Source: Candidatus Bathyarchaeota archaeon A05DMB-3 (GTDB taxonomy: Archaea; Thermoproteota; Bathyarchaeia; Bathyarchaeales; Bathycorpusculaceae). Taken from it: DNA of 64,000 nt. The notes beneath the pieces are model-generated. The model did no database searches. It was not told the DNA's origin and saw only the letters and a list, made by a program, of their open reading frames with translations. Position numbers and translations under genes: made by a program. Below are positions 9,464-41,739 of the stretch, one piece after another. Location: contig JABFQN010000007.1 in the NCBI GenBank assembly GCA_019685555.1, forward strand, positions 1 to 64,000. Direction: 5' to 3'. The number at the start of each line of letters is the position of its first letter. Positions within the stretch are counted from its first letter, which is position 1.

Positions 9464-10555
9464 ATGAAGATGGCGAAGGGAAACATAATATTCGTTTCAA
9501 CAAAGGAGAAGGAATTGTCCGCAATCGGCGTAAGAATGAAATACTTTAAAAAAGCCCTCGAAGCCAACGGATACACAGTGACAAATTTCAAAATAAACCT
9601 GAAAGGACTCAGAAAATACTTGAACTACTTTTTTAGATCCACCCCAAAAGACCTAGTTGAAGCTTCTAAAAACGCGGATTTGGTAATGACCACAACGCCA
9701 ACCTTGCTAAACGCCATATTAAGCCATAAAGTTGCCAGAAAAAATGGACTGCCTCTCATTGTTGATGTTAGGGATGTTTGGGAAGAATATGCCAAAATCG
9801 CCCATCCTCTCATGTATTATCTAGGGCCTATCAAAAAAATAGTCGCTGAATATTATGAAGCATTACGGTATGCCTCTAAAATCTCTGTTGTCACAGAACC
9901 CATAAAAAAGTATTATGAAAAAATCTTAGGCGAAGAAAAAGTTGTCGTCATCACGAATGGCACCGATGTTGACGTAATTAAATGTGAGGGGAAGAAAAGC
10001 GACAGGGACATTGACCTAGTTTATTTGGCGGATTTAGACCACCCATACCATAACGTAGAGTTTCTGCTGGACGCGCTGAAGTACAACAGCCTAAAGCTAA
10101 TTCTTATCGGCGGCGGCAAATACCTAACAACAATGAAAGAATACGCCCAATCTCTTGAAATAACCGACCGAGTATCCTTTGCAGGATGGGCTTCTTACGA
10201 GAACTTGGCTGCTTATCTATGCAGAGTGAAAGTTGGAGTCGTAGGTCGCCCCTTTACCAGCAACATAGGATACTTATATGCTATACCCGTTAAGACCTAC
10301 GATTATTTAGCAGCAGGGCTTCCAGTGGCAGGATATGGTCCAAAAGGTTCTGCTCTTGAAGAGTTCATAAATAAAAATGCCATAGGGGTGTATATTTCTC
10401 AACCAGATCCTAAAGCATTATCGAATAGGCTAGTAGAACTTGTTGCGAAGCATGAGAAATATATGGAAAACGCGAGATCGCTAGCCATGCAATTTGACAG
10501 GAAAAAACTTGCTCAAAAAATGGTGAAAATAGTTAATGATGTTTTATCCAACTAG
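9464..10555 (+). CDS. Family 4 glycosyltransferase
   Basis: This 363-residue GT-B enzyme contains LIVDVRDVWEEYAK in the acceptor domain, VVITNGTDVDVIK at the domain boundary and YAIPVKTYDYLAAGLPVAGY in the donor domain, all usual in GT4 wbuB-like enzymes. It lies 27 bp behind wecB on the same strand and likely uses a sugar made by that pathway. A second in-frame ATG two codons on is possible. It ends tail to tail with the Alg14-Alg13-like gene, overlapping by 4 bp. Confidence 0.86.
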   Translation: MKMAKGNIIFVSTKEKELSAIGVRMKYFKKALEANGYTVTNFKINLKGLRKYLNYFFRSTPKDLVEASKNADLVMTTTPTLLNAILSHKVARKNGLPLIVDVRDVWEEYAKIAHPLMYYLGPIKKIVAEYYEALRYASKISVVTEPIKKYYEKILGEEKVVVITNGTDVDVIKCEGKKSDRDIDLVYLADLDHPYHNVEFLLDALKYNSLKLILIGGGKYLTTMKEYAQSLEITDRVSFAGWASYENLAAYLCRVKVGVVGRPFTSNIGYLYAIPVKTYDYLAAGLPVAGYGPKGSALEEFINKNAIGVYISQPDPKALSNRLVELVAKHEKYMENARSLAMQFDRKKLAQKMVKIVNDVLSN

Positions 10556-11514
10556 CTAAGTTTTAATATTAATTCAGCGAGGTTTGATGATCCGTCTGGA
10601 AGTTTCGGGTACTCCCTTTTCCTTGCCTCTTCAATGGCGTTTAAAATGTTTTCCAGCGTGATTTCAGAAACCATCACAGCATTTATTTTTCTTGCATAAT
10701 GTTCCGCGTCTTCAACTCCTGCAGTGCGGGTCCATTCTGGATTGGGAACAACAACTGTTGGTTTTCTGTAGACTAATGCCTCTAAAATTGTTGCGCCAAA
10801 GTGTGTGACTACCACGTCGGCACCAGCTATAAGTTCATAAAATCTTGCGGAATGTTCTAGAATTTTCCATTCGGGATGCTGCCTTCTGTATGGTTCTGGG
10901 TTAACAGTGCCTGTTTGTAGAACCACATTTTCCAGTTTGCTTTCAGCGATTACGTCGAAGAGCCGCTTATGTCCTAGTGTGCCGCCTGTTACAAGTATGT
11001 AGCCTCCATTCCATGGTTTAACTTCGGGTTTTGGAATTAAGGGACCAACAACTATGCCTTTTTTCAGAAGCTTTTTCTGTTCTTCCCAATGTAATGCTGT
11101 TATGGTTGAAAAGGGCTGTAGCAAAAGTGCGGTTTTTGAGGCTTTTGTGAATCGAACCGAGCTTTCTATGTTCACTATTGGTATGCCTTTTACCCAAGCG
11201 AATAAGCTTGGGGGTATGCAGAAGTTGCTGCCTGTGCTTACGACGACGTCGAATTCTGTGGGAACTTTTTTGAAGGCTTCGATGAACGCCTTCACAAGTT
11301 TTGGTATAAACTCGCTGGTTGGCGTTTTAGCTTCCCTTGGTTTTAAAAGGAAATCAACGGTGCCAAACTTGCTGAGCCTTTCATAGCTTAGCTTGTCTCC
11401 TTCTGGAACGAGAATGTGCAGGTTAGCCCTTCCATAAAGTCTCTGGGCTAGGGCATAACCGTATGCGGTGTGACCGCCTCCACCCGCCAGAATCAGCACG
11501 TTTTTAGTTGCCAA
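10552..11514 (-). CDS. Alg14-Alg13-type fused glycosyltransferase (GT28/MurG-like)
   Basis: This 320-residue protein starts NVLILAGGGGHTAYG, like the membrane-anchoring Alg14 half, and has VVVSTGSNFCIPPSLFAW in the first domain. The second half carries YILVTGGTLGHKRLFD, VVTHFGATILEALVYRKPTV and NPEWTRTAG, like the catalytic Alg13 half. In eukaryotes the two form the UDP-GlcNAc transferase for the second step of lipid-linked oligosaccharide synthesis. Here both domains are in one chain, so a related second-sugar transfer is likely. It is divergent from the flippase gene. Confidence 0.78.
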   Translation of the reverse strand: MATKNVLILAGGGGHTAYGYALAQRLYGRANLHILVPEGDKLSYERLSKFGTVDFLLKPREAKTPTSEFIPKLVKAFIEAFKKVPTEFDVVVSTGSNFCIPPSLFAWVKGIPIVNIESSVRFTKASKTALLLQPFSTITALHWEEQKKLLKKGIVVGPLIPKPEVKPWNGGYILVTGGTLGHKRLFDVIAESKLENVVLQTGTVNPEPYRRQHPEWKILEHSARFYELIAGADVVVTHFGATILEALVYRKPTVVVPNPEWTRTAGVEDAEHYARKINAVMVSEITLENILNAIEEARKREYPKLPDGSSNLAELILKLS

Positions 11515-11624: not shown

Positions 11625-13118
11625 TTGACAAAAAACACGATAAGGCTTCAGTATTCGGGTTTTGTTATTTTCGCTGCTAAAATGTTCAGTGTAGCCACAG
11701 GATTAGCTTTCCAGTATATGATAGCTCGTTCTACAACGAAAGTTGAGTACGGTGTATGGTTTAACATAAACGATGTATTGGTCTACTTTACGTTGCTTGC
11801 AGGGGTTCTTCCATTCTGGGCTATGCGTTTTGCGGCAAGAGGCGAAAAAGGCGCCACGAAAACCGGAGTGTTGGCGAATTTAATGATATCCATAGCCGCT
11901 GTTCTTGTTTATTTGCCGTTTATTCCGCTGATGGCTGAGATGCTTGGCGTTCAGGAGTATAAACACCTCTACATGCTTGTTTCATTGCAAATAGTTGAGG
12001 TTTATTTGCTCAACATCTTTGAGGCATGTTTAAGGGCTAAAAAGCCACAAGCACTGGGTTATGGGGCGCTGGTTGCGGAGACACTTAAAGTGATTTTAGG
12101 TTATGTGCTTATAATCCGTTTGCAGAAAAGTTTAGAAGGAGCAATAATTAGCATAATTGTCGCTATAACTGCGCAAATAATCTACTATACCGTGTTGCTT
12201 GGTGACGAGTTTAGGCAGAGTGTCAGATGGGCATATTTGAAAGAGTGGCTTAAGGGTTCTGTTGCAAACATTTACAACGCGTTGGGAAATCAGATAGCTT
12301 CCTTTATTTTCATTATGCTATTTACTTATGGCGGGGAGGCTGCTCGAGGAAATTATGGTGCTGCCTTCCAGATAGCAAACATAGTCTCATACTCGTCCTT
12401 TTTAGCTTTTGCCTTGTACCCAAAACTTCTGGCAGAAAAAAACCACCAAGATATTGCAACTTCGCTTAAAACAGTTTTGATGTTCGCGGTTCCCATGACG
12501 GTTGGGGTGCTGGCTATACCAGAACTCTATCTTGCAATTCTCAAAGACGAGTATATTATTGCGTGGCCGGTGTTGGTTGTTTTGGCTGTTGATGCTTTTG
12601 TTGCGACGGTGTCTACGATTTTCGTTTTTGTGCTTTATGGATTTGAAAGGGTTGATGAGAAGTCGAAAATATCTTTTAAAGAGTTGGCCAAAAGCAAGCT
12701 TTTTTTGGTTTTTTCTTTACCATATGTTCACTCGGCGATAACTATACCCTTAACTTTTTATGTGTTAACAACCTACTCGCTGGATTCTGTTCAGTCTGCG
12801 CTTTCCGTAGCCATTATAAATTCGACAGTGCGGTTTGCTGTATTTCTTTTCCTTTATGTTGTAATTCGCAAAATGGTTAAAATAATGGTTCCATGGGGGA
12901 ACATTATGAGGTACGTTTTTGCTTCGGTTATTATGGGTTTTGCCCTTTACGGTTTACGTGGAGTGTTGCATCCAACTAGGGTTTATCAAATTTTGGGCTT
13001 GACGGCGATTGGGGGACTGCTCTATCTTGCTTTGCTCATGATGATGGATGAGGATGCCAGAATGTTGGCAAAGTCGATTTTGCAAGAAGTGAAAAACTTT
13101 AGGTTAAGAGGGGTATAG
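11625..13118 (+). CDS. Oligosaccharide flippase / polysaccharide biosynthesis membrane protein (Wzx-like)
   Basis: This 497-residue protein is almost entirely hydrophobic, with about 12-14 predicted membrane segments. Its N-terminus, FVIFAAKMFSVATGLAFQYM, is followed by RSTTKVEYGVWFNINDVLVY, the usual opening of MATE/MVF-like polysaccharide exporters. The family flips lipid-linked oligosaccharides to the outer face of the membrane. It is the only flippase in the glycan island, so it likely exports the product of the flanking glycosyltransferases. The start is TTG; ATG at 11621 is out of frame. Confidence 0.85.
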   Translation: MTKNTIRLQYSGFVIFAAKMFSVATGLAFQYMIARSTTKVEYGVWFNINDVLVYFTLLAGVLPFWAMRFAARGEKGATKTGVLANLMISIAAVLVYLPFIPLMAEMLGVQEYKHLYMLVSLQIVEVYLLNIFEACLRAKKPQALGYGALVAETLKVILGYVLIIRLQKSLEGAIISIIVAITAQIIYYTVLLGDEFRQSVRWAYLKEWLKGSVANIYNALGNQIASFIFIMLFTYGGEAARGNYGAAFQIANIVSYSSFLAFALYPKLLAEKNHQDIATSLKTVLMFAVPMTVGVLAIPELYLAILKDEYIIAWPVLVVLAVDAFVATVSTIFVFVLYGFERVDEKSKISFKELAKSKLFLVFSLPYVHSAITIPLTFYVLTTYSLDSVQSALSVAIINSTVRFAVFLFLYVVIRKMVKIMVPWGNIMRYVFASVIMGFALYGLRGVLHPTRVYQILGLTAIGGLLYLALLMMMDEDARMLAKSILQEVKNFRLRGV

Positions 13119-25586: not shown

Positions 25587-26957
25587 TTAATCAGAAAGTC
25601 CTCTGTTTTTGCGTTCTTGCCATGTCTTTTCCATCATGAGCTTAACTTGCTCTATTGCTGTTCCAAGATAATTCCTCGGATTTAAAGCTTCGTCGATTTC
25701 TTTTTCGCTTAGCTTTTTGCTTATAACCTTGTCCTCTAACAGCACTTCTTTGAAGGGATGCTTTTCGATATCGCTTTTTATTGTTAGTTTCCTTAGGAGT
25801 TCGTGGGCTTCTTGTCGGCTTACACCTTTCTTTGTTAAGGCTATCATTACGGCTTCTGACATGGCTCGTCCCTGTGTTAATTCTATGTTTTGGCGCATGC
25901 GCTCTTCGTTAACATATAAGCCAGCTACGATGGTGGTCATTAAAAATAGTATGTAATCTGTTAAAATGCATGCTTCTGGAATTATGAAACGCTCAGCAGA
26001 GGATTGTGTTAAATCGCGTTCATGCCAAGTCACCATATTCTCCAAGGCTGGAATTGTGAGGCTTCTAACCATGCGGGCTAGTCCGCATACGCGTTCGCAT
26101 GTTTCCGGGTTCCGCTTATGAGGCATCGTTGAACTGCCAACTTGTTTTTCTGCTTCAAAAGGTTCAGCAAGTTCCCCTATCTCCGGCCTCTGCAGTTCAC
26201 GGATTTCTGTGGCGAAATTTTCTACACTTGTGGCGATTAACGCCAAAAGGCATATTAACTCAGCGTGGCTGTCCCTCTGCACAATCTGCGTAGAAATGTC
26301 TGCTGGCTTCAAACCCAGTTTCTGCATGACCAATTCTTGAATTTTCATGGCGTGTTCGCCTAAACCCGCCTGTGTTCCCACTGCGCCGCTCATTTTACCA
26401 ACCAGTATGCGTTCTCTGCATTGCCTAAGCCTCTCGATATGCCTTGAGATTTCCCGCATCCAAACGGCGAACTTAAAGCCTAACGTTATGGGCAAAGCGT
26501 GCTGTCCATGGGTTCTGCCCATCATAATTGTTTCCTTATACTGCAGAGCCTTCTCCATTAGGATTTTCTCAAAATCATTCAGTCGCCTTTCAATTATTTC
26601 TAGGGCTTCTTTGAGCTGTAGGGCGTTTGCCGTGTCCACAATGTCATAGCTTGTGGCGCCAAGATGCACATAGGCTCCGCTGGGACCGCTGGCTTCCGCC
26701 AAGGCTCTTACAAGCGCCATAACATCATGCTTAATCTCCCGCTCAATCTCCTTTATTCTTTCAAGTTTAACATTTTTAAGCGACGCAGCCACCATAATTT
26801 TTTCAGCGTCTTCCCGCGGTATGTTGCCCACCTCAGCATGCGCCCAGGCTAACGCTGCTTCTACATCCAACATTTTTTGAACACGGTTTTCCTCTTCGAA
26901 GATTTTACGCATTTCCGACGTGCCGTAACGTCCAGTGTCTATGGGAAGTATGGGCAA
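25587..26957 (-). CDS. purB: Adenylosuccinate lyase
   Basis: This is a 456-residue fumarase/aspartase-superfamily enzyme with LGATSYDIVDTANAL, GRTHGQHALPITLGFK and the signature loop VGSSTMPHKRNPETCE. It cleaves adenylosuccinate and SAICAR in purine synthesis. The open frame extends 89 codons further upstream, but family members begin close to PI(H/D)PIDxRYG. The TTG at 26957 (MPILPIDTGRYG) has GAGGGAG about ten bases upstream, so the longer frame is shadow coding opposite the divergent asnB-like gene. Confidence 0.93.
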   Translation of the reverse strand: MPILPIDTGRYGTSEMRKIFEEENRVQKMLDVEAALAWAHAEVGNIPREDAEKIMVAASLKNVKLERIKEIEREIKHDVMALVRALAEASGPSGAYVHLGATSYDIVDTANALQLKEALEIIERRLNDFEKILMEKALQYKETIMMGRTHGQHALPITLGFKFAVWMREISRHIERLRQCRERILVGKMSGAVGTQAGLGEHAMKIQELVMQKLGLKPADISTQIVQRDSHAELICLLALIATSVENFATEIRELQRPEIGELAEPFEAEKQVGSSTMPHKRNPETCERVCGLARMVRSLTIPALENMVTWHERDLTQSSAERFIIPEACILTDYILFLMTTIVAGLYVNEERMRQNIELTQGRAMSEAVMIALTKKGVSRQEAHELLRKLTIKSDIEKHPFKEVLLEDKVISKKLSEKEIDEALNPRNYLGTAIEQVKLMMEKTWQERKNRGLSD

Positions 26958-27049
26958 ACGTCTTCTCCCTCGAAAAGAAATAGTGGGATTGAGGATTAAT
27001 GTTTTACCACAGAAGGCTTTAAACTGTTGTTGGAAAAGGGCGCTGAAAC

Positions 27050-28504
27050 ATGCGGGCGATAGTCGCCGTTTATGACCGAAAAGAAAAACGTGCAGCACAG
27101 AAGACGGTTGAAATGTTAAAGGCGTTAAGGCACAGGGGCGCTGATGCTTTCGGAGCTGCAACCCCAAAAAGCATAGACCTAAAAGCTGAACCAGAACAAC
27201 TGCAAATGCGCGACGCTGAATCAAAAACGGCTGTAGGACAAGTCTTCCTTCAAGTTTTACCGTTGGATAAGCCGCAACCCATTAAACTTGAAAACATCGC
27301 CTCAGTTTTTGATGGAAGAATCTACCAGTCTCCTAAGCTTTATTCTACAGAAGCCACTGTTAATATGCTGGCTGCAGGCGGTGAATCCGGCGCCGAAGCA
27401 TTAATTGGTGAGTCTGATGGAAGCTTTGCTTGCGCTGTGGCTGAAGCTGAAAGGCTTATTGTCGGCAGAGACGCATTAGGTTTATACCCTCTCTATTATG
27501 GCGGGAAAGACTGCGTCTTCGCCTTCGCATCAGAGTGCAAAGCACTGTGGAAAATTGGCGTAAAAGAAGCAAAATCCTTTCCACCAGGACACGTAATGGT
27601 CGTAGACGGAAAGAACTTAACGATAAAGCCGGTTAAGGTTTTGAAAAAACGTGTTGTCAGACCAAGCCCCCTATCCATGGAAGAGGCTGTTGAAAAGCTT
27701 CAAGGGCTTCTGGAGCGGTCGGTTAGGGAAAAGACTGCGGGTTTAGATAGGGTTGCTGTGGCTTTTTCCGGCGGTTTAGACAGCAGCCTAACGGCTTTTC
27801 TAGCTAAAGAAGCTGGAGCAGAAGTACACTTAATCCATGTAAGCCTCGAAAATCAGCTGGAATCGGTGCAAGCTGAAGAAGCTGCCTCTTTGCTTGGGCT
27901 TCCTTTTCACAAATACCTCTACAGCGAAAAAGCTGTGGAACATGCGCTCCCACAAGTGTTGTGGGCTGTTGAAAGCCCAGACCCCATTAAAACAAGCATA
28001 GGAATACCGCTTTATTGGACCGCTGAAAGGGCTGCTGAACTGGGTTTTAGGGTCTTGTTGGTGGGGCAAGGGGCAGACGAGCTTTTTGGCGGTTATAAGC
28101 GTTACTTAACTCTTTATTCGCGTTATGGCGGAGCTTTTGTTGAAAAGGCAATGGCAAATGATGTTTTGAGGATGTATGAAAACAATTTTGAAAGAGACTT
28201 TAAACTCTGCAGTTTCCACAATGTGGAACTTCGCTTGCCCTTCGCCGCTTATCCGCTTGTCGAATTTGCCTTAAACCTACCATTAAAATTGAAAATCAAT
28301 TCAAAAAGCGACATGCTTAGGAAGATTGTGCTGAGAAAAACCGCCGAAAAACTTGGACTGCCACCAAAAATAGTCAACAAACCTAAAAAGGCGATACAAT
28401 ATGCCACTGGAGTGGACAAAGCGCTTAAAAAGCTGGCTAAAAGGGAAAAACTGCCATTAAAGCAGTATTTGCAGAAAACTTTCCAAAAGTTGGCAAAATT
28501 CTAA
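27050..28504 (+). CDS. Asparagine-synthetase-like amidotransferase lacking Cys2
   Basis: In this 484-residue protein the N-terminal domain keeps the glutaminase outline (LIVGRDALGLYPLYYGG, FAFASECKALW), but the protein begins MRAIVAVYD, without the Cys2 nucleophile. The synthetase domain is intact: PP-loop AFSGGLDSSLTAFLA and GQGADELFGGYKRYL. The likely reaction is ATP-dependent amidation of aspartate or another carboxylate using free ammonia or an external donor, which is inference from the missing Cys. The gene is divergent from purB, 92 bp apart. Its C-terminus is basic and lysine-rich. Confidence 0.85.
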   Translation: MRAIVAVYDRKEKRAAQKTVEMLKALRHRGADAFGAATPKSIDLKAEPEQLQMRDAESKTAVGQVFLQVLPLDKPQPIKLENIASVFDGRIYQSPKLYSTEATVNMLAAGGESGAEALIGESDGSFACAVAEAERLIVGRDALGLYPLYYGGKDCVFAFASECKALWKIGVKEAKSFPPGHVMVVDGKNLTIKPVKVLKKRVVRPSPLSMEEAVEKLQGLLERSVREKTAGLDRVAVAFSGGLDSSLTAFLAKEAGAEVHLIHVSLENQLESVQAEEAASLLGLPFHKYLYSEKAVEHALPQVLWAVESPDPIKTSIGIPLYWTAERAAELGFRVLLVGQGADELFGGYKRYLTLYSRYGGAFVEKAMANDVLRMYENNFERDFKLCSFHNVELRLPFAAYPLVEFALNLPLKLKINSKSDMLRKIVLRKTAEKLGLPPKIVNKPKKAIQYATGVDKALKKLAKREKLPLKQYLQKTFQKLAKF

Positions 28505-28782: not shown

Positions 28783-30516
28783 CTAGCGGATTTCCTCACG
28801 TAGTCTTATGAGGATTCCGTTGACGGTTGTTTCAGCTTTTTCCCTTCTACGCTCGTAGTCGGCTAGGAGCCTTCGATACGCTTCAAGGGTTAACTCTCCC
28901 CTTCTGTGCCGCATCTCTATACTTCTGATGTTTGCCTCAACTTCGTTGATTTCCGTCTCAGCAACCTCCAGCTGGCGCATTAAATCTGCATATTTTCCTC
29001 CAGCAGACCGCAGCTTCAGCTTCAAATCATCCAAGTTTCTGTTAAGCGTACCAAGGCGTGTTTCCAAAGTTTTCCTCTGCACTTTATACCTTCGCCTCGG
29101 AATCCTTCCTTTACGCACTGCAGTTTCAAGGGATTTCATCTCTGTGACTGTTTTCCTCTTCTCTTCATAAGACTCCACAAAAGACCTTATCATCTCCGGA
29201 CTTAATTTCACCGCCACAACAGTTGGCACCGCAACGGGTACTGCGGGCGCCTTAGGTCTCCTCCAGATGGCGATGACTGCGCATCCAAACGTGGCTAAAG
29301 CCCAAGCCCACAATGTGGGACGGAAAGAAAGCCAAAGCAAATTATATCTATATGCAACTTTCATGGTTAAGCTGTCTAGGAAAAACACTCCATGTTTATT
29401 TGCGGTGATTTTTTCTTGGAAAACATCCCTTATAGTGCCATAAGTCATGTCTGCTGAAGAGTTTTCGAAGCTTAGGTTTGTTATTTTGGCGCCTTCTGGA
29501 AGCGTGAATGTTACCCACGCCTCTTCGATGTAATAGTTAACATACGGGAACAGTTTTAGGCTGAGTTCCGCGTTGTCGGTTTCGCTTTTTTGGATATAGT
29601 TTTTAGGCAAAGTATATTCAACGATAAATCTTGTTGACTTTCCAATTTCCACTGGCAATGTCAAGCTTATCTCGTAGCGATTTGTTTCTGCATCAGCTAA
29701 AGTGGTGGTTCCACCCTTTCTTCCAAACTCGTCTTTAACAGCCAAATTAGACGCGTTGGGCAGAAGAAACACCCCAACAGAAGTGATTTGTTTGGGCGAC
29801 TGGTTCTTTATGTAATAGCTGTCTGAAACCGCGATTTCTCCCATGCCGCCTATGACAACTTCCCGCTTAAACTCCTCCACCGTAAAAAGCTGTATGCCCT
29901 CAGTGGTTAATAGGAAGGTTACATTTGACGGTTGATAGGTTAACCGCGGCAACTCCTCGTTTGTTAAATAGTTAAATGCGGCAATGGTGCCAGAAACGTA
30001 TTTCGCGTCTGAGGGCAAAATGACTGAAGCATTGCAAGAAGAAGCATTCACTATAAGGCTTGGAAAGGCTGGAAAATCCAAGGTGTAAAGACTCGTGTTT
30101 TGCGCATCTTGCCTAAGGAGACTGTTTGAAAGCACAAAACCAACGGTGAAAATTCCGTCTTCAGGTTTTGGAGTGAGACTTACATTAACACCGAAAAAGC
30201 CAACATAATTTTCCAACGGCACATCAACAGCAACATTATATTTTTGGGCTGGATTAGACGGGTTGTAGGCTACACAGCGGAGAACATGAGAACCATACTG
30301 ATATGGAAAACCCATGAGAAAGCTGTCGGGCACTATTCCACTTATCTTAAATGTATCATTTATGAAAATGTAGCCATTATACAAGACTTCCACTCTATGG
30401 TTAACCCAGTCAACAGCATATGCCTCTGCCCTAACATCCAAAACATATACCACATTCAAAGCAAAAATTAAAACTACAGCTGCCAAGACGGTAAACGCCA
30501 CAGCTTTCTTTTCCAA
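28783..30516 (-). CDS. Ribophorin I (OST1)-like membrane glycoprotein
   Basis: This 577-residue type I membrane protein has a signal or anchor segment at residues 7-26, an extracytoplasmic domain to about 398, one membrane span at about 400-418 and a helical coiled-coil tail to 577. The ectodomain follows ribophorin I in order: GEIAVSDSYYI, VGVFLLPNAS, KDEFGRKGGTTTL, FIVEYTLPKNY and VTFTLPEGAKI. The tail also aligns in order (KTLETRLGTL, RRGELTLEAYRRL, TTVNGILIRL). In eukaryotes this is a subunit of oligosaccharyltransferase. Several N-x-S/T sites occur in the ectodomain. TTG start; GGAGGAG lies upstream. The homology is by eye and needs a profile search. Confidence 0.68.
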   Translation of the reverse strand: MEKKAVAFTVLAAVVLIFALNVVYVLDVRAEAYAVDWVNHRVEVLYNGYIFINDTFKISGIVPDSFLMGFPYQYGSHVLRCVAYNPSNPAQKYNVAVDVPLENYVGFFGVNVSLTPKPEDGIFTVGFVLSNSLLRQDAQNTSLYTLDFPAFPSLIVNASSCNASVILPSDAKYVSGTIAAFNYLTNEELPRLTYQPSNVTFLLTTEGIQLFTVEEFKREVVIGGMGEIAVSDSYYIKNQSPKQITSVGVFLLPNASNLAVKDEFGRKGGTTTLADAETNRYEISLTLPVEIGKSTRFIVEYTLPKNYIQKSETDNAELSLKLFPYVNYYIEEAWVTFTLPEGAKITNLSFENSSADMTYGTIRDVFQEKITANKHGVFFLDSLTMKVAYRYNLLWLSFRPTLWAWALATFGCAVIAIWRRPKAPAVPVAVPTVVAVKLSPEMIRSFVESYEEKRKTVTEMKSLETAVRKGRIPRRRYKVQRKTLETRLGTLNRNLDDLKLKLRSAGGKYADLMRQLEVAETEINEVEANIRSIEMRHRRGELTLEAYRRLLADYERRREKAETTVNGILIRLREEIR

Positions 30517-30582: not shown

Positions 30583-30900
30583 TTAGAATAATAGTCGCTT
30601 TTCAGCAATCTCTTTCGGCAAGGAAACCAAAACAGATGCTCTCTCAAGTTTGTAGAGGAATACGCTTCTCCTATGCCCTTTTACATCTTTTTGAGTTTCC
30701 CTTCGCACCGATGTAACGTTGTACTGTCCCAGAAACATGTACCTTCCAGGCGGTTTCTTTTCAAAAACAAATATTGGATAATGCCCTTCCATTTGCAGTT
30801 TTAAAGCGAGGTTGCCCCTCCGCATCTCCTGATTTCCAAAGCGTCCCTCCCCAGTATACAAGAGGCATTCGCCTTCCATTCTATCATTGTAAGCTTCCAC
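30583..30900 (-). CDS. Solo SRA-like (ScoMcrA-type) domain protein
   Basis: This 105-residue protein is almost entirely one domain: LLYTGEGRFGNQEMRRGNLA, IFVFEKKPPGRYMFLGQYNV and HRRSVFLYKLERA. This pattern resembles the SRA-like domain that reads modified DNA in McrA-type restriction enzymes. No nuclease (HNH or PD-D/ExK) domain is attached. Its upstream frame and neighbours (ribophorin-like gene, radical SAM gene) show no partner nuclease or methylase. GTG at 30900 is used; ATG at 30879 is the alternative. It may be a remnant of a restriction gene or a stand-alone reader. Confidence 0.55.
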   Translation of the reverse strand: MEAYNDRMEGECLLYTGEGRFGNQEMRRGNLALKLQMEGHYPIFVFEKKPPGRYMFLGQYNVTSVRRETQKDVKGHRRSVFLYKLERASVLVSLPKEIAEKRLLF

Positions 30901-31845: not shown

Positions 31846-32271
31846 CTATTTTAGGAGTCCTCCACGCTTTAAATAGTAGTTTTCCTCTTTCTTTGGGCCG
31901 AAGCTTCTAACGCCCTTCTCTTTAAGTTGTTTTCTCAATTTTTCCGCGTATTCTTTGCTTATTTCGCCTCTCTTTTCCATGTAGGCTATTATTTCCTCAG
32001 CTTGCTCTTGTGTGTCGCAGCGGCGTAGAAAATCAATCACGTCTGGGTCGTAGTGGACAAAATGCCTTGCCGCGGCTCTTTCACCGCAATTGCTGTCTGT
32101 TCGTACAGAGTTTACTGCAACCTTGTTTTCGCCAAGCTCCATTTCCTTAGCTAGGTTTGGAAACAATTTTTTGAATGTTTCTTTGTCGAACTCCACATGG
32201 GTACCTTCAGCATGTTTTCTGTTTCCTTTTATTGTAAATCGCATATTTAAATTTCTGGCAAACCAGAACAT
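31846..32271 (-). CDS. DUF2095-like archaeal protein
   Basis: This is a small charged protein of about 141 residues with a conserved-looking core HYDPDVIDFLRRCDTQEQAE, followed by YAEKLRKQLKEKGVRSFGPK. I recall these features from the archaeal DUF2095 family, with moderate certainty. The start is unclear: TTG 32286, ATG 32271 and ATG 32244 are in frame. ATG 32271 lies 1 bp after the nucleotidyltransferase stop and suits operon reading. The function is unknown. Confidence 0.6.
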   Translation of the reverse strand: MFWFARNLNMRFTIKGNRKHAEGTHVEFDKETFKKLFPNLAKEMELGENKVAVNSVRTDSNCGERAAARHFVHYDPDVIDFLRRCDTQEQAEEIIAYMEKRGEISKEYAEKLRKQLKEKGVRSFGPKKEENYYLKRGGLLK

Positions 32272-32272
32272 T

Positions 32273-32899
32273 TCAGAAGGGAACAAACCTCTGCGTGGGA
32301 TTTTTTAAAAGCACTTCCTCCAGTTCTCGAAGGTTAAGCCCAGAAATTATGTCTCTGTATATTTCACATCGCTCTTTAGCGCCATATTCTGCCATGCTTC
32401 GAACCGTTATTTCGGCTCTTTCTTTAATGGGTGACTCCAAGAGTATGCGGAAGGATTTTTCCATTCTTCCCTCCTTTGTTATAGTAACCCATCCCTTCTC
32501 CATTATCTTGAGTTTTTCCCGCTTCAACAGTTTTAGAATGTCTTTCGGGTCGTTGTGGTAGAGGGTTATGTCTATGTCGCTGTCGCGATAAATTGTGCCG
32601 CGCCAAACGCTTCCAACTAAAATTGGGTTATATTTTTCAAGGATTTTCATCAGTTTTAAGGCTTCCAGCCTCATCTGGATTAGGCGTTTCTGTCGGGCGG
32701 AGCCTTCGTTTTCTTCGGCTATTTTATCTAGTTCCATCGCTACTTCAAGGTTTGTTGGCAAAAAGTGGACGCCTAAAGTTTCCGCAGCCCTCAATTTCGC
32801 CTGCTTATACTCTTTTTCAACTCCTGAATAGAGGAGGGTGGCGGCTTCCCTTGCAACTTTCCTTCTAATTTGCGCAGAGCTTGAAAAGCCCAAAGTCAC
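32273..32899 (-). CDS. Small nucleotidyltransferase (Pol beta superfamily)
   Basis: This 208-residue protein has a helical N-terminal third and then ILVGSVWRGTIYRDSDIDIT, the G-S-x(n)-D-x-D active-site pattern of Pol beta-type nucleotidyltransferases. It is similar to the start of archaeal CCA-adding enzymes but far shorter. It lacks the tRNA-binding domains, so it is not a full CCA enzyme. GTG start at 32899. It sits between a glycosyltransferase gene (9 bp upstream) and the DUF2095-like gene in one minus-strand run. The substrate is unknown. Confidence 0.75.
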   Translation of the reverse strand: MTLGFSSSAQIRRKVAREAATLLYSGVEKEYKQAKLRAAETLGVHFLPTNLEVAMELDKIAEENEGSARQKRLIQMRLEALKLMKILEKYNPILVGSVWRGTIYRDSDIDITLYHNDPKDILKLLKREKLKIMEKGWVTITKEGRMEKSFRILLESPIKERAEITVRSMAEYGAKERCEIYRDIISGLNLRELEEVLLKNPTQRFVPF

Positions 32900-32907
32900 C
32901 CAGTCTT

Positions 32908-34158
32908 TTAATGTTTTATTACACGCTCATATAATTCAATGGTTTTTTCAGCTATCTTGTCCCATGTGAACTCGCTTAAAATTCGACGTCTCCCATTTTT
33001 ACCAAGCCAATTTTTCCTTTCCGGATTTTCCAAAGCGCTGACGACTCCCCATGCAATGTCTGCTGGATTGCTTGGGTTAATATGAAAGCCGCATTGTTCC
33101 TCGCCGCATGGAATAACTATTTCCCGCATTCCGCTTACTCCTGCTGCACCGACAACCACTGGGCGCTCCATGCTCATGGCTTCTAAGGCAACTATCCCGA
33201 AGGGTTCATATAGGCTTGGAAAAACCGCCACATCGCACGCTGCGTAATGGAGGATGCGCTCCTCTTCTGATATAAATTCAAAGTTGAATTTCACAGAGTC
33301 TTGAAGCTTCATCATCCTAACCAAGTTAACCAAATAATCCTGCAAATCGCCTAAGCCGACTATTACAAGTTTTGCGTTGGGGATTTTCTGCAGCACGTGG
33401 GGCATTGCCATTATGAGTTTGTCAATGCCTTTAACGCCGACAAGCCTTCCAATGAAGAGAATCATGGAGTTTTCAGGTTTTATGCCGTAGGCTTCTCTAA
33501 CCCGCATTATCTGGTCTTGGCTCACTGTTTCCGGATTATACTTTTGAGGGTCAACCCCATTGTAGCATACTTCTATTTTGTCTTTTGGAAAACCAAGTTT
33601 TATGAGCTCGTCTTTCATGGCGTGGGAAACTGTAATGACAAGGTCTGCGGCTTGGGCTCCTCGGAGTTCAATGTTGCTAACAACTTCTGAACCGTTTCCG
33701 AGGGTTCTACCCTTCTCTGTAGAATGAACGTGGAAAACCAAGGGCAAGCCTGTCTCCTTTTTGATGGTTATTCCAGCGATAACCGAAAGCCAGTCATGAG
33801 CCACTATGATATCATACTTGAAGTTTTCCTTCCCAATAAGCTCGTTGACAAGTTTTGAAGCACTCAAATAATTGTAAACAAGGATTTTCGAGAAAAGCTG
33901 GATTCCCCTACCCCATTTTTTAACGTCTTCAGCCACCACGTCTGGAAGCGAATCAGAAATGTCGATGTGGAGGGGGCGGTGGATTTCTATGCCTCGCCAG
34001 ATTTCCCTTGTGGGTAGGCTTCCCTCGTCATCGTTCATGGTGAAAACTGTAACATCATGGTCTAACAGGACGAATTTTCGCGTGATTTCCGCTGCGTAGG
34101 TTCCTAAACCACCAACGATTTTCGGTGGATACTCGTAGACAAGCACAGCCATCTTCAT
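32908..34158 (-). CDS. Glycogen-synthase-like family 4/5 glycosyltransferase
   Basis: This 416-residue GT-B enzyme begins MAVLVYEYPPKIVGGLGTY, the starch/glycogen synthase-type opening with the K-x-G-G-L pattern. It also has HDWLSVIAGI, ILFIGRLVGVKGIDKLI and a donor site VAVFPSLYEPFGIVALEAMS. It may extend an alpha-glucan or add a hexose to a surface glycan. It leads the minus-strand run with the nucleotidyltransferase and DUF2095-like genes. It is separate from the glycan island at the left end. Confidence 0.85.
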   Translation of the reverse strand: MKMAVLVYEYPPKIVGGLGTYAAEITRKFVLLDHDVTVFTMNDDEGSLPTREIWRGIEIHRPLHIDISDSLPDVVAEDVKKWGRGIQLFSKILVYNYLSASKLVNELIGKENFKYDIIVAHDWLSVIAGITIKKETGLPLVFHVHSTEKGRTLGNGSEVVSNIELRGAQAADLVITVSHAMKDELIKLGFPKDKIEVCYNGVDPQKYNPETVSQDQIMRVREAYGIKPENSMILFIGRLVGVKGIDKLIMAMPHVLQKIPNAKLVIVGLGDLQDYLVNLVRMMKLQDSVKFNFEFISEEERILHYAACDVAVFPSLYEPFGIVALEAMSMERPVVVGAAGVSGMREIVIPCGEEQCGFHINPSNPADIAWGVVSALENPERKNWLGKNGRRRILSEFTWDKIAEKTIELYERVIKH

Positions 34159-38732: not shown

Positions 38733-39023
38733 ATGGAAATAAGCGTGGCTGTAAGATTTGTCGGCAGCCTTCGCAACTTGGCTGGAAAAAGCAAAATCAC
38801 CCTAAAATTTGAAAAGAACACGGCGCTGAGAGAGGTTGTAAAGAGGATAATTGAAAAATTTCCCGAAATGGGAAAAGCCATAATTGACCCAGAGCTTGGC
38901 GACCCAAGACCTAACACCCTCATAATTGTGAACGGGAAAGAAATCAGCGTCTTAAACGGTTTAGAAACTCTGTTAAAAAACGGGGATGAAGTGGTTTTTG
39001 TCCCAGTTTCCCATGGTGGATAG
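38733..39023 (+). CDS. MoaD/ThiS-like ubiquitin-fold protein
   Basis: This 96-residue beta-grasp protein contains ISVAVRFVGSLRNLAGKSKI and ends FVPVSHGG, with the free di-glycine C-terminus that is adenylated and thiocarboxylated in MoaD, ThiS and SAMP proteins. I start it at ATG 38733, which has GGTGAG seven bases upstream; ATGs at 38715 and 38718 are in frame and overlap the kinase stop. No E1-like MoeB or molybdopterin gene is nearby. Sulfur carrier or protein modifier are both possible. Confidence 0.8.
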   Translation: MEISVAVRFVGSLRNLAGKSKITLKFEKNTALREVVKRIIEKFPEMGKAIIDPELGDPRPNTLIIVNGKEISVLNGLETLLKNGDEVVFVPVSHGG

Positions 39024-39058
39024 GTTGCGCGCACAAGGCATATGAAGATGGAAACATC

Positions 39059-39853
39059 ATGTTAAATCCAATATTAACTTTAACCACCGACTTCGGATTG
39101 GTGGACCCTTATGTGGCTGAAATGAAAGCCGTTATTCTAAAGATAAATCCAAACGCCAGAATAGTTGACATAAGTCATCAAATAGAAAAGTTCAACATAA
39201 GAATGGGCGCATATGTCCTTGCTGCTGCAGCGCCCTACTTTCCAAAAGGCACAGTGCATGTGGCGGTTATAGACCCCGGCGTTGGAACAAAACGCAAACC
39301 CATAATGATAGAGGCGAAAAACAGCTTTTTCATAGGTCCAGACAACGGCGTATTAGCTTTGGCGGCGAAAAACCAAGGCATAAAGCATGTTTACGAAATA
39401 GCAAACCCTAAGTTTATGCTTCCAAGAATATCTGCCACTTTTCATGGAAGAGATATCTTCGCACCAGCCGCCGCTTTCCTATCTAAAGGAATCCGCCCCT
39501 CAGAGTTTGGACCAGAAATTCGCAACATTGTTGTGCCAAAATTTGCGAAAACTGTCAGAAAAGGCGCTGCGTTCATGGGCGAGATAATCCATGTGGACGG
39601 TTTTGGAAACATAATAACAAACTTCACAGAAAAACATCTAAAGGCTTTAAACGTTAAAGCGACTGTCCGCATAAAAATTAAAAACATGGAGTTAACGCTG
39701 AGGCTTTGTAAGGCTTATGCAGAGGTTGAAGCCCAAAAACCCCTAGCCATAATAGGAAGCCATGATTTTCTGGAAATATCAATAAACATGGGAAACGCTG
39801 CAGAAACATTTAATGTGAAGGTTGGAGATGAGGTTAAACTTTATCGCTTTTAG
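39059..39853 (+). CDS. SAM hydroxide adenosyltransferase (DUF62, chlorinase/fluorinase-like)
   Basis: This 264-residue protein has TLTTDFGLVDPYVAEMKAVI, VDISHQIEKFNIRMGAYVL, AVIDPGVGTKRKP, FFIGPDNGVLALA and HGRDIFAPAAAFLS, the DUF62 layout. Family members in archaea convert SAM plus water to adenosine and methionine; true halogenases are rare. The Asp-Arg-His set expected for water activation is compatible with the visible DPGVGTKR and HGRD segments. It ends inside the 3' end of convergent nadM, overlapping by 20 bp. Confidence 0.9.
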   Translation: MLNPILTLTTDFGLVDPYVAEMKAVILKINPNARIVDISHQIEKFNIRMGAYVLAAAAPYFPKGTVHVAVIDPGVGTKRKPIMIEAKNSFFIGPDNGVLALAAKNQGIKHVYEIANPKFMLPRISATFHGRDIFAPAAAFLSKGIRPSEFGPEIRNIVVPKFAKTVRKGAAFMGEIIHVDGFGNIITNFTEKHLKALNVKATVRIKIKNMELTLRLCKAYAEVEAQKPLAIIGSHDFLEISINMGNAAETFNVKVGDEVKLYRF

Positions 39854-40358
39854 TAAGGTCTTTAAGCCTTTCAACACCGCCTATCTCTTTTATGAATTTC
39901 GCCACACTTTTGGGAACAAGCTCCTCCCAGTTTCCGTCTTTTAGCATCCTTTCCCTTATTTCAGTTGCAGAATATTCTTTACGCTTATAAAAGCGGATAG
40001 CCTTAACCTCGTAGCCAGCCTCTATGAAAAGCCTCCGCGTTAAAGGCTCATTGGAATAGACTATGTCAAAGCGTGGAGTGTAACCCTCAACTGCGGAAAC
40101 CCAAACCATGTGGATGTGAACATCTGGCACCGGCACAATCCATATTCGCCCCAAATCTATCTCTGCCTCTTCTAATGCTTTTCGAATCATCACAAGCCTT
40201 TCGCCTGTTGTGAAGGGGTTGCCGATGCGGTGGCTGTATTGGGCACTGCCGACGGCGATTATAAGCTCGTCAACTTCTTTTAAAATCTCTTTCACCACGT
40301 TAAGGTGTCCCCTATGGAAAGGCTGAAACCTTCCAACAAAAAGCCCGCGCTTAACCAT
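39834..40358 (-). CDS. nadM: Nicotinamide-nucleotide adenylyltransferase, archaeal type
   Basis: This 174-residue protein has GLFVGRFQPFHRGHLNVVKE with the nucleotidyltransferase H-x-G-H variant (FHRGH), then IAVGSAQYSHRIGNPFTTGE and YSATEIRERML. It makes NAD from NMN and ATP. The length matches archaeal NadM. nadC lies 3.3 kb away on the other strand, so NAD synthesis genes are near but not joined. The 3' end overlaps the DUF62 gene by 20 bp. Confidence 0.94.
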   Translation of the reverse strand: MVKRGLFVGRFQPFHRGHLNVVKEILKEVDELIIAVGSAQYSHRIGNPFTTGERLVMIRKALEEAEIDLGRIWIVPVPDVHIHMVWVSAVEGYTPRFDIVYSNEPLTRRLFIEAGYEVKAIRFYKRKEYSATEIRERMLKDGNWEELVPKSVAKFIKEIGGVERLKDLTKSDKV

Positions 40359-40422
40359 GTAACCATCTCTTTTTGAAGTTTAAACATCAAGCTTTTATTA
40401 TTTGCGTTAAAAACAATGGCAT

Positions 40423-41004
40423 TTAATGCTTTTCCAACACAAATTCAACTGGAAAAATCTGCATCTTTCTTCCGTTTACAATAATCTCTTGTTCCTTTGC
40501 ATAGCCTCTTTTTTCCCGCTTTAGAATTTCAAGCTTAACCCGTAAGCCTCCGCCATACCCGCCTAAAGAAAAGTTTGAGGCTACTATTCTGTGGCATGGA
40601 ACAATCAGCGGGAAAGGGTTTGACGCCATAACTTGTCCCACAGCCCTAGGGCTTCCGCCTACCGCCTTTGCAACGGAACCATAAGAAGCCACATAGCCAA
40701 CTGGAATCAAGGCAACAGCTTCAAGAACCTTTCGTGCATATTTTGATAAGTGTTCCATGGCAAGCGAAAAATTTTGGATATATCCGCCACCATTGTAGAT
40801 ATTTGCCAGCGAAACGATAACCTGTTCGGCAAAACTGTTCCCCTTTATGGAATGCTGAAAAGGAATGTTAAAGGGGATGCTTTCCAACAAACTCTGCAAA
40901 ACTTGAGTTTGGCTAAACGCAAACGCCGTGGCGAAAACCTTTTCAACTTCACATGCAACACCAAACCAGACCTCGTCAACGTTTTTAGCATAAAGCGTAA
41001 GCAT
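40423..41004 (-). CDS. ogt: Methylated-DNA--protein-cysteine methyltransferase
   Basis: This 193-residue protein has the active-site motif IVPCHRIVASN, preceded by the helix-turn-helix part GYVASYGSVAKAVGGSPRAV and followed by LGGYGGGLRVKLEIL. It removes O6-alkyl groups from guanine in one irreversible transfer to cysteine. The N-terminal domain is present and diverged. It is divergent from the proteasome gene and has its own short upstream region. Confidence 0.94.
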   Translation of the reverse strand: MLTLYAKNVDEVWFGVACEVEKVFATAFAFSQTQVLQSLLESIPFNIPFQHSIKGNSFAEQVIVSLANIYNGGGYIQNFSLAMEHLSKYARKVLEAVALIPVGYVASYGSVAKAVGGSPRAVGQVMASNPFPLIVPCHRIVASNFSLGGYGGGLRVKLEILKREKRGYAKEQEIIVNGRKMQIFPVEFVLEKH

Positions 41005-41050
41005 TTTGTCGCCCCTTTAGAAGCGTTATAGAATCAGCAACTATTTAGCC

Positions 41051-41058
41051 TTATAGAA
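41051..41058 (+). promoter_or_regulatory. TATA-like promoter element for the proteasome gene
   Basis: TTATAGAA sits about 60-68 bp before the preferred GTG at 41119. Standard spacing gives transcription start near 41080, leaving a leader that includes AGGTGA. This favours the later start over GTG 41086. Confidence 0.4.
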
Positions 41059-41118
41059 TAAAAGAGACATTAAGTTTAATAGGTTGTGCTGGTATATCAC
41101 GGGAAAGGTGAAAACAGC

Positions 41119-41739
41119 GTGGAAAAGGAAGGGCAAATGCCCCAGTATTTATGGATTCCAGGCGCAACAACAATTGGCATAGTATGCAGAGACGGTGTCA
41201 TCCTAGCTTCTGAGAAACGGGTTTCCTACGGGTATTTGGTTGTCAGCAGAGGCGGCAAAAAAGTGTTTAAGATAACCGACCATATCGGTGCAGCGTGCGC
41301 TGGACTTGTTTCAGACATGCAGATTCTCATTAGGGAAGTGGAGGCTTACGCTAATTTGTATGGCATGGATGTTGGCAGACCAATATCCGTTAGGTCAGCT
41401 GCCAAACTCGTGTCGAATCTGCTTTTCGCCAATAGGCTTGCACCCTTAATAACACAAACCATTGTAGGCGGCATGGACGATGAGGGCGCATCCCTCTATG
41501 TGCTAGACGTTTTAGGCTCCGTAATACCAGACAAATATGCTGTTGTTGGTTCTGGAACAGAAATCGCCATGGGAGTGCTTGAAGAAAGCTACAGGGAAGG
41601 CTTAAGCATGGAAGATGGAAAAGAACTAGTGGTCAGAGCCATAAAATCCGCCATAAGCCGAGACATCATGAGCGGCGACGGCATCGACTTCCTACTTATA
41701 ACGAAAGACGGCACCAGAGAGGAATCTATAAAATTCTAA
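41119..41739 (+). CDS. psmB: Proteasome beta-type subunit, probably non-catalytic
   Basis: This 206-residue Ntn-fold protein contains IPGATTIGIVCRDGVILASE and later VGSGTEIAMGVLEESY and SGDGIDFLLIT. With Glu17 (SEKR) and Lys33 (GGKKVFKI) placed as in catalytic archaeal beta subunits, position 1 is alanine (GATTIG against G/TTTVG). A usable catalytic Thr1 is therefore absent. TACK archaea such as Sulfolobus pair such a subunit with an active one, which is not in this window. GTG 41119 has AGGTGA eight bases upstream; GTG 41086 is an alternative. Confidence 0.85.
   Translation: MEKEGQMPQYLWIPGATTIGIVCRDGVILASEKRVSYGYLVVSRGGKKVFKITDHIGAACAGLVSDMQILIREVEAYANLYGMDVGRPISVRSAAKLVSNLLFANRLAPLITQTIVGGMDDEGASLYVLDVLGSVIPDKYAVVGSGTEIAMGVLEESYREGLSMEDGKELVVRAIKSAISRDIMSGDGIDFLLITKDGTREESIKF

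Follow-up and report, generated by a model that had tools for sequence, protein, structure and literature searches.

In human cells, ribophorin I assists the attachment of sugar chains to proteins that are just leaving the ribosome, and together with its partners it is usually presented as a eukaryotic invention with Asgard forerunners. The window analyzed here, a stretch of 64,000 nucleotides from Candidatus Bathyarchaeota archaeon A05DMB-3, contains an open reading frame (ORF) that the first-pass annotation had called a full-length ribophorin I (OST1)-like protein. The locus raises the question of whether a genuine OST1 exists in this class of archaea and, if so, which oligosaccharyltransferase (OST) it would serve. 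The gene and the parts of its product are as follows.

28783..30516, minus strand: OST1/ribophorin I homologue, 577 residues, TTG start (Pfam, class profile against human RPN1, Foldseek)
30433..30516, minus strand: N-terminal hydrophobic helix, residues 1 to 28 (boundary approximate), a probable signal sequence (helix 2 to 23 in the model; hydrophobic segment in full-length relatives)
29908..30420, minus strand: predicted extracellular beta-sandwich 1, residues 33 to 203, carrying sequons (model; profile alignment to human RPN1)
29347..29886, minus strand: predicted extracellular beta-sandwich 2, residues 211 to 390, with the strongest Ribophorin_I score (Pfam, profile, model)
29260..29337, minus strand: predicted single transmembrane helix, residues 394 to 419 (model, alignment of relatives)
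28789..29199, minus strand: predicted cytoplasmic four-helix bundle, residues 440 to 576, homologous to the tails of human RPN1 and of Asgard MK-D1 OST1 (8WHN)

The start of the gene is nearly fixed, because the stop-to-stop frame spans just 582 residues against the 577 of the ORF. In the Pfam search that had been proposed as a check, Ribophorin_I was the sole Pfam-A match over cut-off for the 577-residue protein (37.1 bits for a cut-off of 25; E value of 2.6e-9). A single-sequence search of PDB chains with the same protein returned the Asgard OST1 tail 8WHN (E value of 2.6e-7) and human RPN1 (3.5e-4). When a class profile was used instead (alignment A1, 26 sequences from Bathyarchaeia), human RPN1 was matched with an E value of 1.8e-32, positions 17 to 572 of the 580 in the profile aligning with 12 to 604 of the 607 in RPN1, and matches were also obtained for yeast Ost1 (1.6e-19) and the 8WHN tail (3.8e-17). 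The motifs listed by the first-pass annotation are all found in the protein, and one of them, RRGELTLEAY in the tail, has the counterparts VAGKLKKDTY in human RPN1 and KRGKLPSKAAY in 8WHN. With significant Pfam and profile matches and an RPN1-like predicted fold, the proposed identity as ribophorin I/OST1 is upheld, and sequence comparison shows homology to OST1/RPN1 over the full length, including both sandwiches, the membrane helix, and the tail. NCBIfam has no model naming the OST1 protein, a gap that will probably cause automated annotation to overlook it.

The AlphaFold model of the protein (mean pLDDT of 87.7) agrees with the architecture first read from the letters, i.e., a signal, an ectodomain, one membrane span, and a helical tail, and its best structural matches are OST1/RPN1 chains, as expected of an RPN1-like fold. 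In a Foldseek search against solved structures, the top eight matches were all such chains, with E values from 1.4e-27 to 9.4e-21. The TM-score was 0.52 over the full length and 0.67 when normalized to human chain 6s7t_E (446 columns), with a high full-length rmsd and an unsettled placement of the domains. A conserved LW..FRPTLW segment precedes the transmembrane helix, which begins inside it. Human RPN1 (OST-A/OST-B; PDB 6S7O and 8B6L) likewise combines two beta-sandwiches, one membrane helix, and a cytoplasmic helical bundle, whereas its sequence is only about 16% identical and it resides in the endoplasmic reticulum (ER) rather than in an archaeal cell membrane. Among the 26 relatives, the ectodomains contain 207 N-X-S/T sequons compared to 90 ± 9 after shuffling, a count inflated by shared ancestry, and the tails contain 5 compared to 10 ± 3 in shuffled sequences. 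This excess in the ectodomain and scarcity in the tail fit an ectodomain that lies outside the cell and is itself glycosylated, with the tail inside.

Of 51 OST1 loci from outside the class, almost all share this architecture, including a tail some 130 to 165 residues long. Family f30 of the same phylum departs from it at five loci (L149, L155, L156, L160, and L161), where 21 to 41 residues follow the membrane helix and the rest of the protein is kept; the cytoplasmic bundle is absent and the end is a short basic or proline-rich stretch, a condition shared with yeast Ost1. Other variants affect the opposite end of the protein. Short forms of about 410 to 465 residues (L002, L003, L005, L006, L008, and L012) do not have the first sandwich and retain the second one, the membrane helix, and the tail, while at L024 and L028 a region that has a DTDDDGLFN-type motif and matches nothing in Pfam takes the place of the first sandwich; in L028 this region is apparently repeated.

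Within the class, no other soluble part of OST1 is as conserved as the tail, which has a mean pairwise identity of 34% compared to 23 to 24% for the sandwiches. Its net charge is positive in 24 of the 26 aligned sequences, and twelve of its columns are lysine or arginine in at least 80% of rows. Conserved basic residues of the tail include K453, R474, R487, R493, R538, and R557. According to PMC11417166, the human and Asgard OST1 tails bind ribosomes in pull-downs, and by analogy the bathyarchaeal tail probably docks ribosomes too. It could instead be that the protein is an OST subunit without a ribosome-binding tail, that glycosylation is post-translational, and that the bundle serves assembly or some other cytoplasmic partner. 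Yeast Ost1 (6EZN and 6C26), which resembles the bathyarchaeal protein in its ectodomain and membrane helix (structural E value of about 1e-22), indeed does without such a bundle, as does f30, and ribosome binding has been demonstrated just for the Asgard and human tails. Against this reading, to which we give well under an even chance while taking it seriously, the long tail is kept in nearly all other lineages sampled, is better conserved than any other soluble part, and has the twelve basic columns.

The catalytic AglB/STT3, which the first-pass annotation had not seen within the window, is present elsewhere in the source genome (G000:C2, ORF 38869-41130, plus strand, 753 residues; Pfam STT3, 1.6e-46), with a WWDYG motif and a nearby double sequon, DNATVNGT. 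About 3.8 kb upstream of it and divergent, also outside the window, lies a gene for a 164-residue membrane protein (G000:C2:34615-35109; L115:4616-5110, minus strand). Its family matches just the membrane half of OST3/OST6, and a ten-row profile of it reached human OSTC/DC2 with an E value of 2.4e-9, versus 0.86 for MAGT1. By these sequence comparisons, the companion gene encodes an OST3/6-type membrane subunit nearer to OSTC than to MAGT1/TUSC3; like human OSTC/DC2, to which its similarity is distant, it is membrane-only and without thioredoxin. AglB was found in 223 of 251 class genomes and the OSTC-like gene in 234 of 251 (119 of the 120 good ones). In 62 of 93 hand-tabulated genomes the two lie within 10 kb of each other (median gap, 4.0 kb), and in family f19 the OSTC-like gene is the divergent neighbor of AglB. 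The presence of this subunit near AglB suggests that these archaea normally have a small OST of several subunits rather than AglB by itself. The next gene downstream of AglB, in the same orientation, encodes a PF00953 Alg7/AglH-like sugar-phosphate transferase (G000:C2:41144-42016; L115:11145-12017). Matches to the thioredoxin half of OST3_OST6 (model positions 2 to 107) were discarded because E. coli and other controls give them as well, which marks them as generic thioredoxins, and three of the longest thioredoxin ORFs, considered as OST3 candidates, looked by eye like fusions of a CoA-binding-like domain and thioredoxin.

The surroundings of OST1 itself are of a different kind.

31846..32286, minus strand: DUF2095 protein, upstream of OST1 (Pfam; accompanies OST1 at most loci from named Bathyarchaeia)
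27050..28504, plus strand: asparagine-synthase-like protein, convergent to OST1 (conserved neighbor)
10552..11514, minus strand: Alg14-Alg13-type glycosyltransferase fusion (Pfam Alg14 and Glyco_tran_28_C)

The gene order around OST1 (DUF2095, asparagine-synthase-like, purB) is widely kept in named Bathyarchaeia; none of these conserved neighbors is a glycosylation gene, and AglB does not adjoin OST1. The purB-like ORF (25587-27224, minus strand) and the asparagine-synthase-like ORF share 175 bases, and the true start of the former is probably internal. A SAD/SRA-domain protein of 105 residues (30583-30900, minus strand) lies directly upstream of OST1 and also occurs at L070 and L071. A GT4-type glycosyltransferase (32908-34158, minus strand) is kept near OST1 and is 81 to 91% identical between bathyarchaeal genomes whose OST1 proteins are just 43 to 60% identical. 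Farther away, the Alg14-Alg13-type fusion already noted in the window is borne out by its two Pfam matches and is possibly a glycan-assembly enzyme with no direct link to OST1; the putative flippase beside it (11625-13118, 497 residues) had no Pfam match.

Taken as a whole, the protein is probably an archaeal OST1 orthologue that serves the AglB (STT3) OST of the bathyarchaeal cell membrane as an accessory subunit, within an AglB-OST1-OSTC-like model; its homology, co-occurrence, and topology are demonstrated or strongly supported by sequence comparison and the predicted structure. The absence of genomic linkage to AglB, the unrelated neighbors, and the missing or replaced first ectodomain of some relatives would also suit an OST1 homologue that functions independently of AglB, for instance in surface or S-layer anchoring. 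We consider this unlikely, given that OST1 is mostly single-copy in a class throughout nearly all of which AglB, too, occurs, matches an OST subunit along its full length, tail included, and is accompanied by a second OST-type subunit that is linked to AglB.

A search with A1 detected OST1 in 201 of 251 Bathyarchaeia genomes, mostly as one copy, and in 107 of the 120 good ones, so that the conservation in related genomes that the first-pass annotation had proposed to check is evident; a chance match is ruled out by this class-wide retention. Pfam's own Ribophorin_I model under-reports the family, as it detects OST1 in 92 of the 251 class genomes compared to 201 with A1. At the level of the phylum, a match was obtained in 199 of 398 genomes. 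A scan of named genomes with an eight-row alignment as the query found relatives that were all from Bathyarchaeota/Bathyarchaeia (41 of 41), including complete-chromosome records such as CP070759, and genome G202 and Bathyarchaeota archaeon BA2 have identical OST1 proteins. The A1 search left 13 of the 120 good genomes, several of them with AglB, with no detectable OST1, so that in some genera the subunit may not be needed or may have diverged strongly. Good genomes of genus g6 and part of g4 (e.g., G099, G133, G078, and G122) have AglB and the OSTC-like gene, with OST1 undetected, and such genera are natural cases for asking what OST1 contributes.

In a tree of OST1 sequences, the class falls on one side of a branch with an SH-aLRT support of 92, and its families group as expected. 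Since eukaryotes were represented by the aligned stretches of human and yeast only, with no Asgard sequence and with long branches flagged, this tree tests the monophyly of the class and not the placement of eukaryotes. The class branch and the kept gene order indicate that OST1 was vertically inherited rather than recently transferred. The customary description of ribophorin I as a eukaryotic and Asgard protein would invite an explanation by recent transfer from either group or by contamination; this is very improbable in view of that branch (from a tree without Asgard sequences), the expected family grouping, the gene order shared across named Bathyarchaeia, and the presence of OST1 in complete chromosomes. 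Finally, a chance or convergent likeness, in which a beta-sandwich surface protein carries a coiled-coil tail, has a practically negligible probability and is refuted by the end-to-end profile match, with four domains matched in order at 1.8e-32, and by the Foldseek ranking, where OST1/RPN1 chains lead all others by more than ten orders of magnitude, despite the weak similarity of the tail to SMC, CdvA, and other such coiled-coil models and sandwich matches to M1 peptidases at about 1e-6 (the ninth Foldseek match, E value of 8e-7).

Counted against the accessory-subunit reading are the unrelated neighbors of OST1, its distance from AglB, the good genomes that have AglB with OST1 undetected, and the lack of an Ost5/TMEM258 match over cut-off when further subunits were sought in 61 genomes. 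Ost5/TMEM258, which belongs to the Ost1 subcomplex in yeast, had no match over cut-off there, in a family so tiny that controls match at the same level; the sub-cut-off matches were rejected as no better than those in bacterial controls. DAD1, OST48, and RPN2 (subcomplex III) had no match at 1e-3 in the 61 genomes, and no positive control matched either, so that their absence is not proven; the apparent difference from human RPN1, whose subcomplex III partners go undetected on the archaeal side, is to be read with the same limit. TRAP-alpha had no match over cut-off in these genomes, two weak matches being partial and below cut-off. Prometheoarchaeum syntrophicum MK-D1, whose OST1 (8WHN; PMC11417166) resembles the bathyarchaeal one in its four-helix tail by direct sequence match, differs in belonging to another phylum and in having TRAP subunits, which gave no match over cut-off in Bathyarchaeia.

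Because homologous tails bind ribosomes and because DC2 mediates the contact of OST-A with the Sec61 translocon in humans (PMC7226087), the simplest model is an AglB-OST1-OSTC-like complex located at SecY. The membrane helix of OST1 would anchor it in the complex with AglB and the OSTC-like protein, its ectodomain outside the cell may handle the nascent or just-glycosylated chain, and its basic cytoplasmic bundle would contact the ribosome. The OSTC-like subunit may in turn contact SecY, by analogy with human DC2, and glycosylation would take place as proteins emerge, much as with human OST-A. That Bathyarchaeia run such a three-part co-translational OST, made of AglB and counterparts of the two subunits that connect human OST-A with the ribosome (through the RPN1 tail) and with the Sec channel (through OSTC/DC2), is a tentative proposal to which we give a little less than an even chance.

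A 2016 survey saw no promising prokaryotic candidates (PMC4973528), and a 2023 Nature paper mentions that Ost1 and Ost3 have been reported from Asgard archaea (PMC10307638). In PMC11417166 (J Biol Chem 2024), OST1 and OST3/6 are assigned to TACK archaea as well as to eukaryotes and Asgard archaea. Literature mentioning Bathyarchaeia together with ribophorin, as available in part, gave no detailed account of a bathyarchaeal OST1, and the supplementary tables of PMC11417166 may list Bathyarchaeia. The novelty claimed by the first-pass annotation thus holds for a detailed bathyarchaeal account and not for the occurrence of OST1 outside Asgard archaea, already stated in that paper. OST1 as a kind was known in TACK; added here are its near-universality in Bathyarchaeia, its conserved tail, and an OSTC-like partner near AglB.

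A full-length OST1 with a tail of the ribosome-binding type in almost all Bathyarchaeia, and widely in their phylum, moves the origin of this subunit deeper, and part of the "eukaryotic" OST machine appears to have an older and broader presence in archaea than the usual accounts give it. If the three-part co-translational OST is real, ribosome-coupled N-glycosylation would go back to before TACK archaea diverged from Asgard archaea and eukaryotes, and neither the ER nor the Asgard lineage would have invented it. OST1, the OSTC-like gene, and AglB provide concrete genes with which archaeal co-translational glycosylation can be tested.
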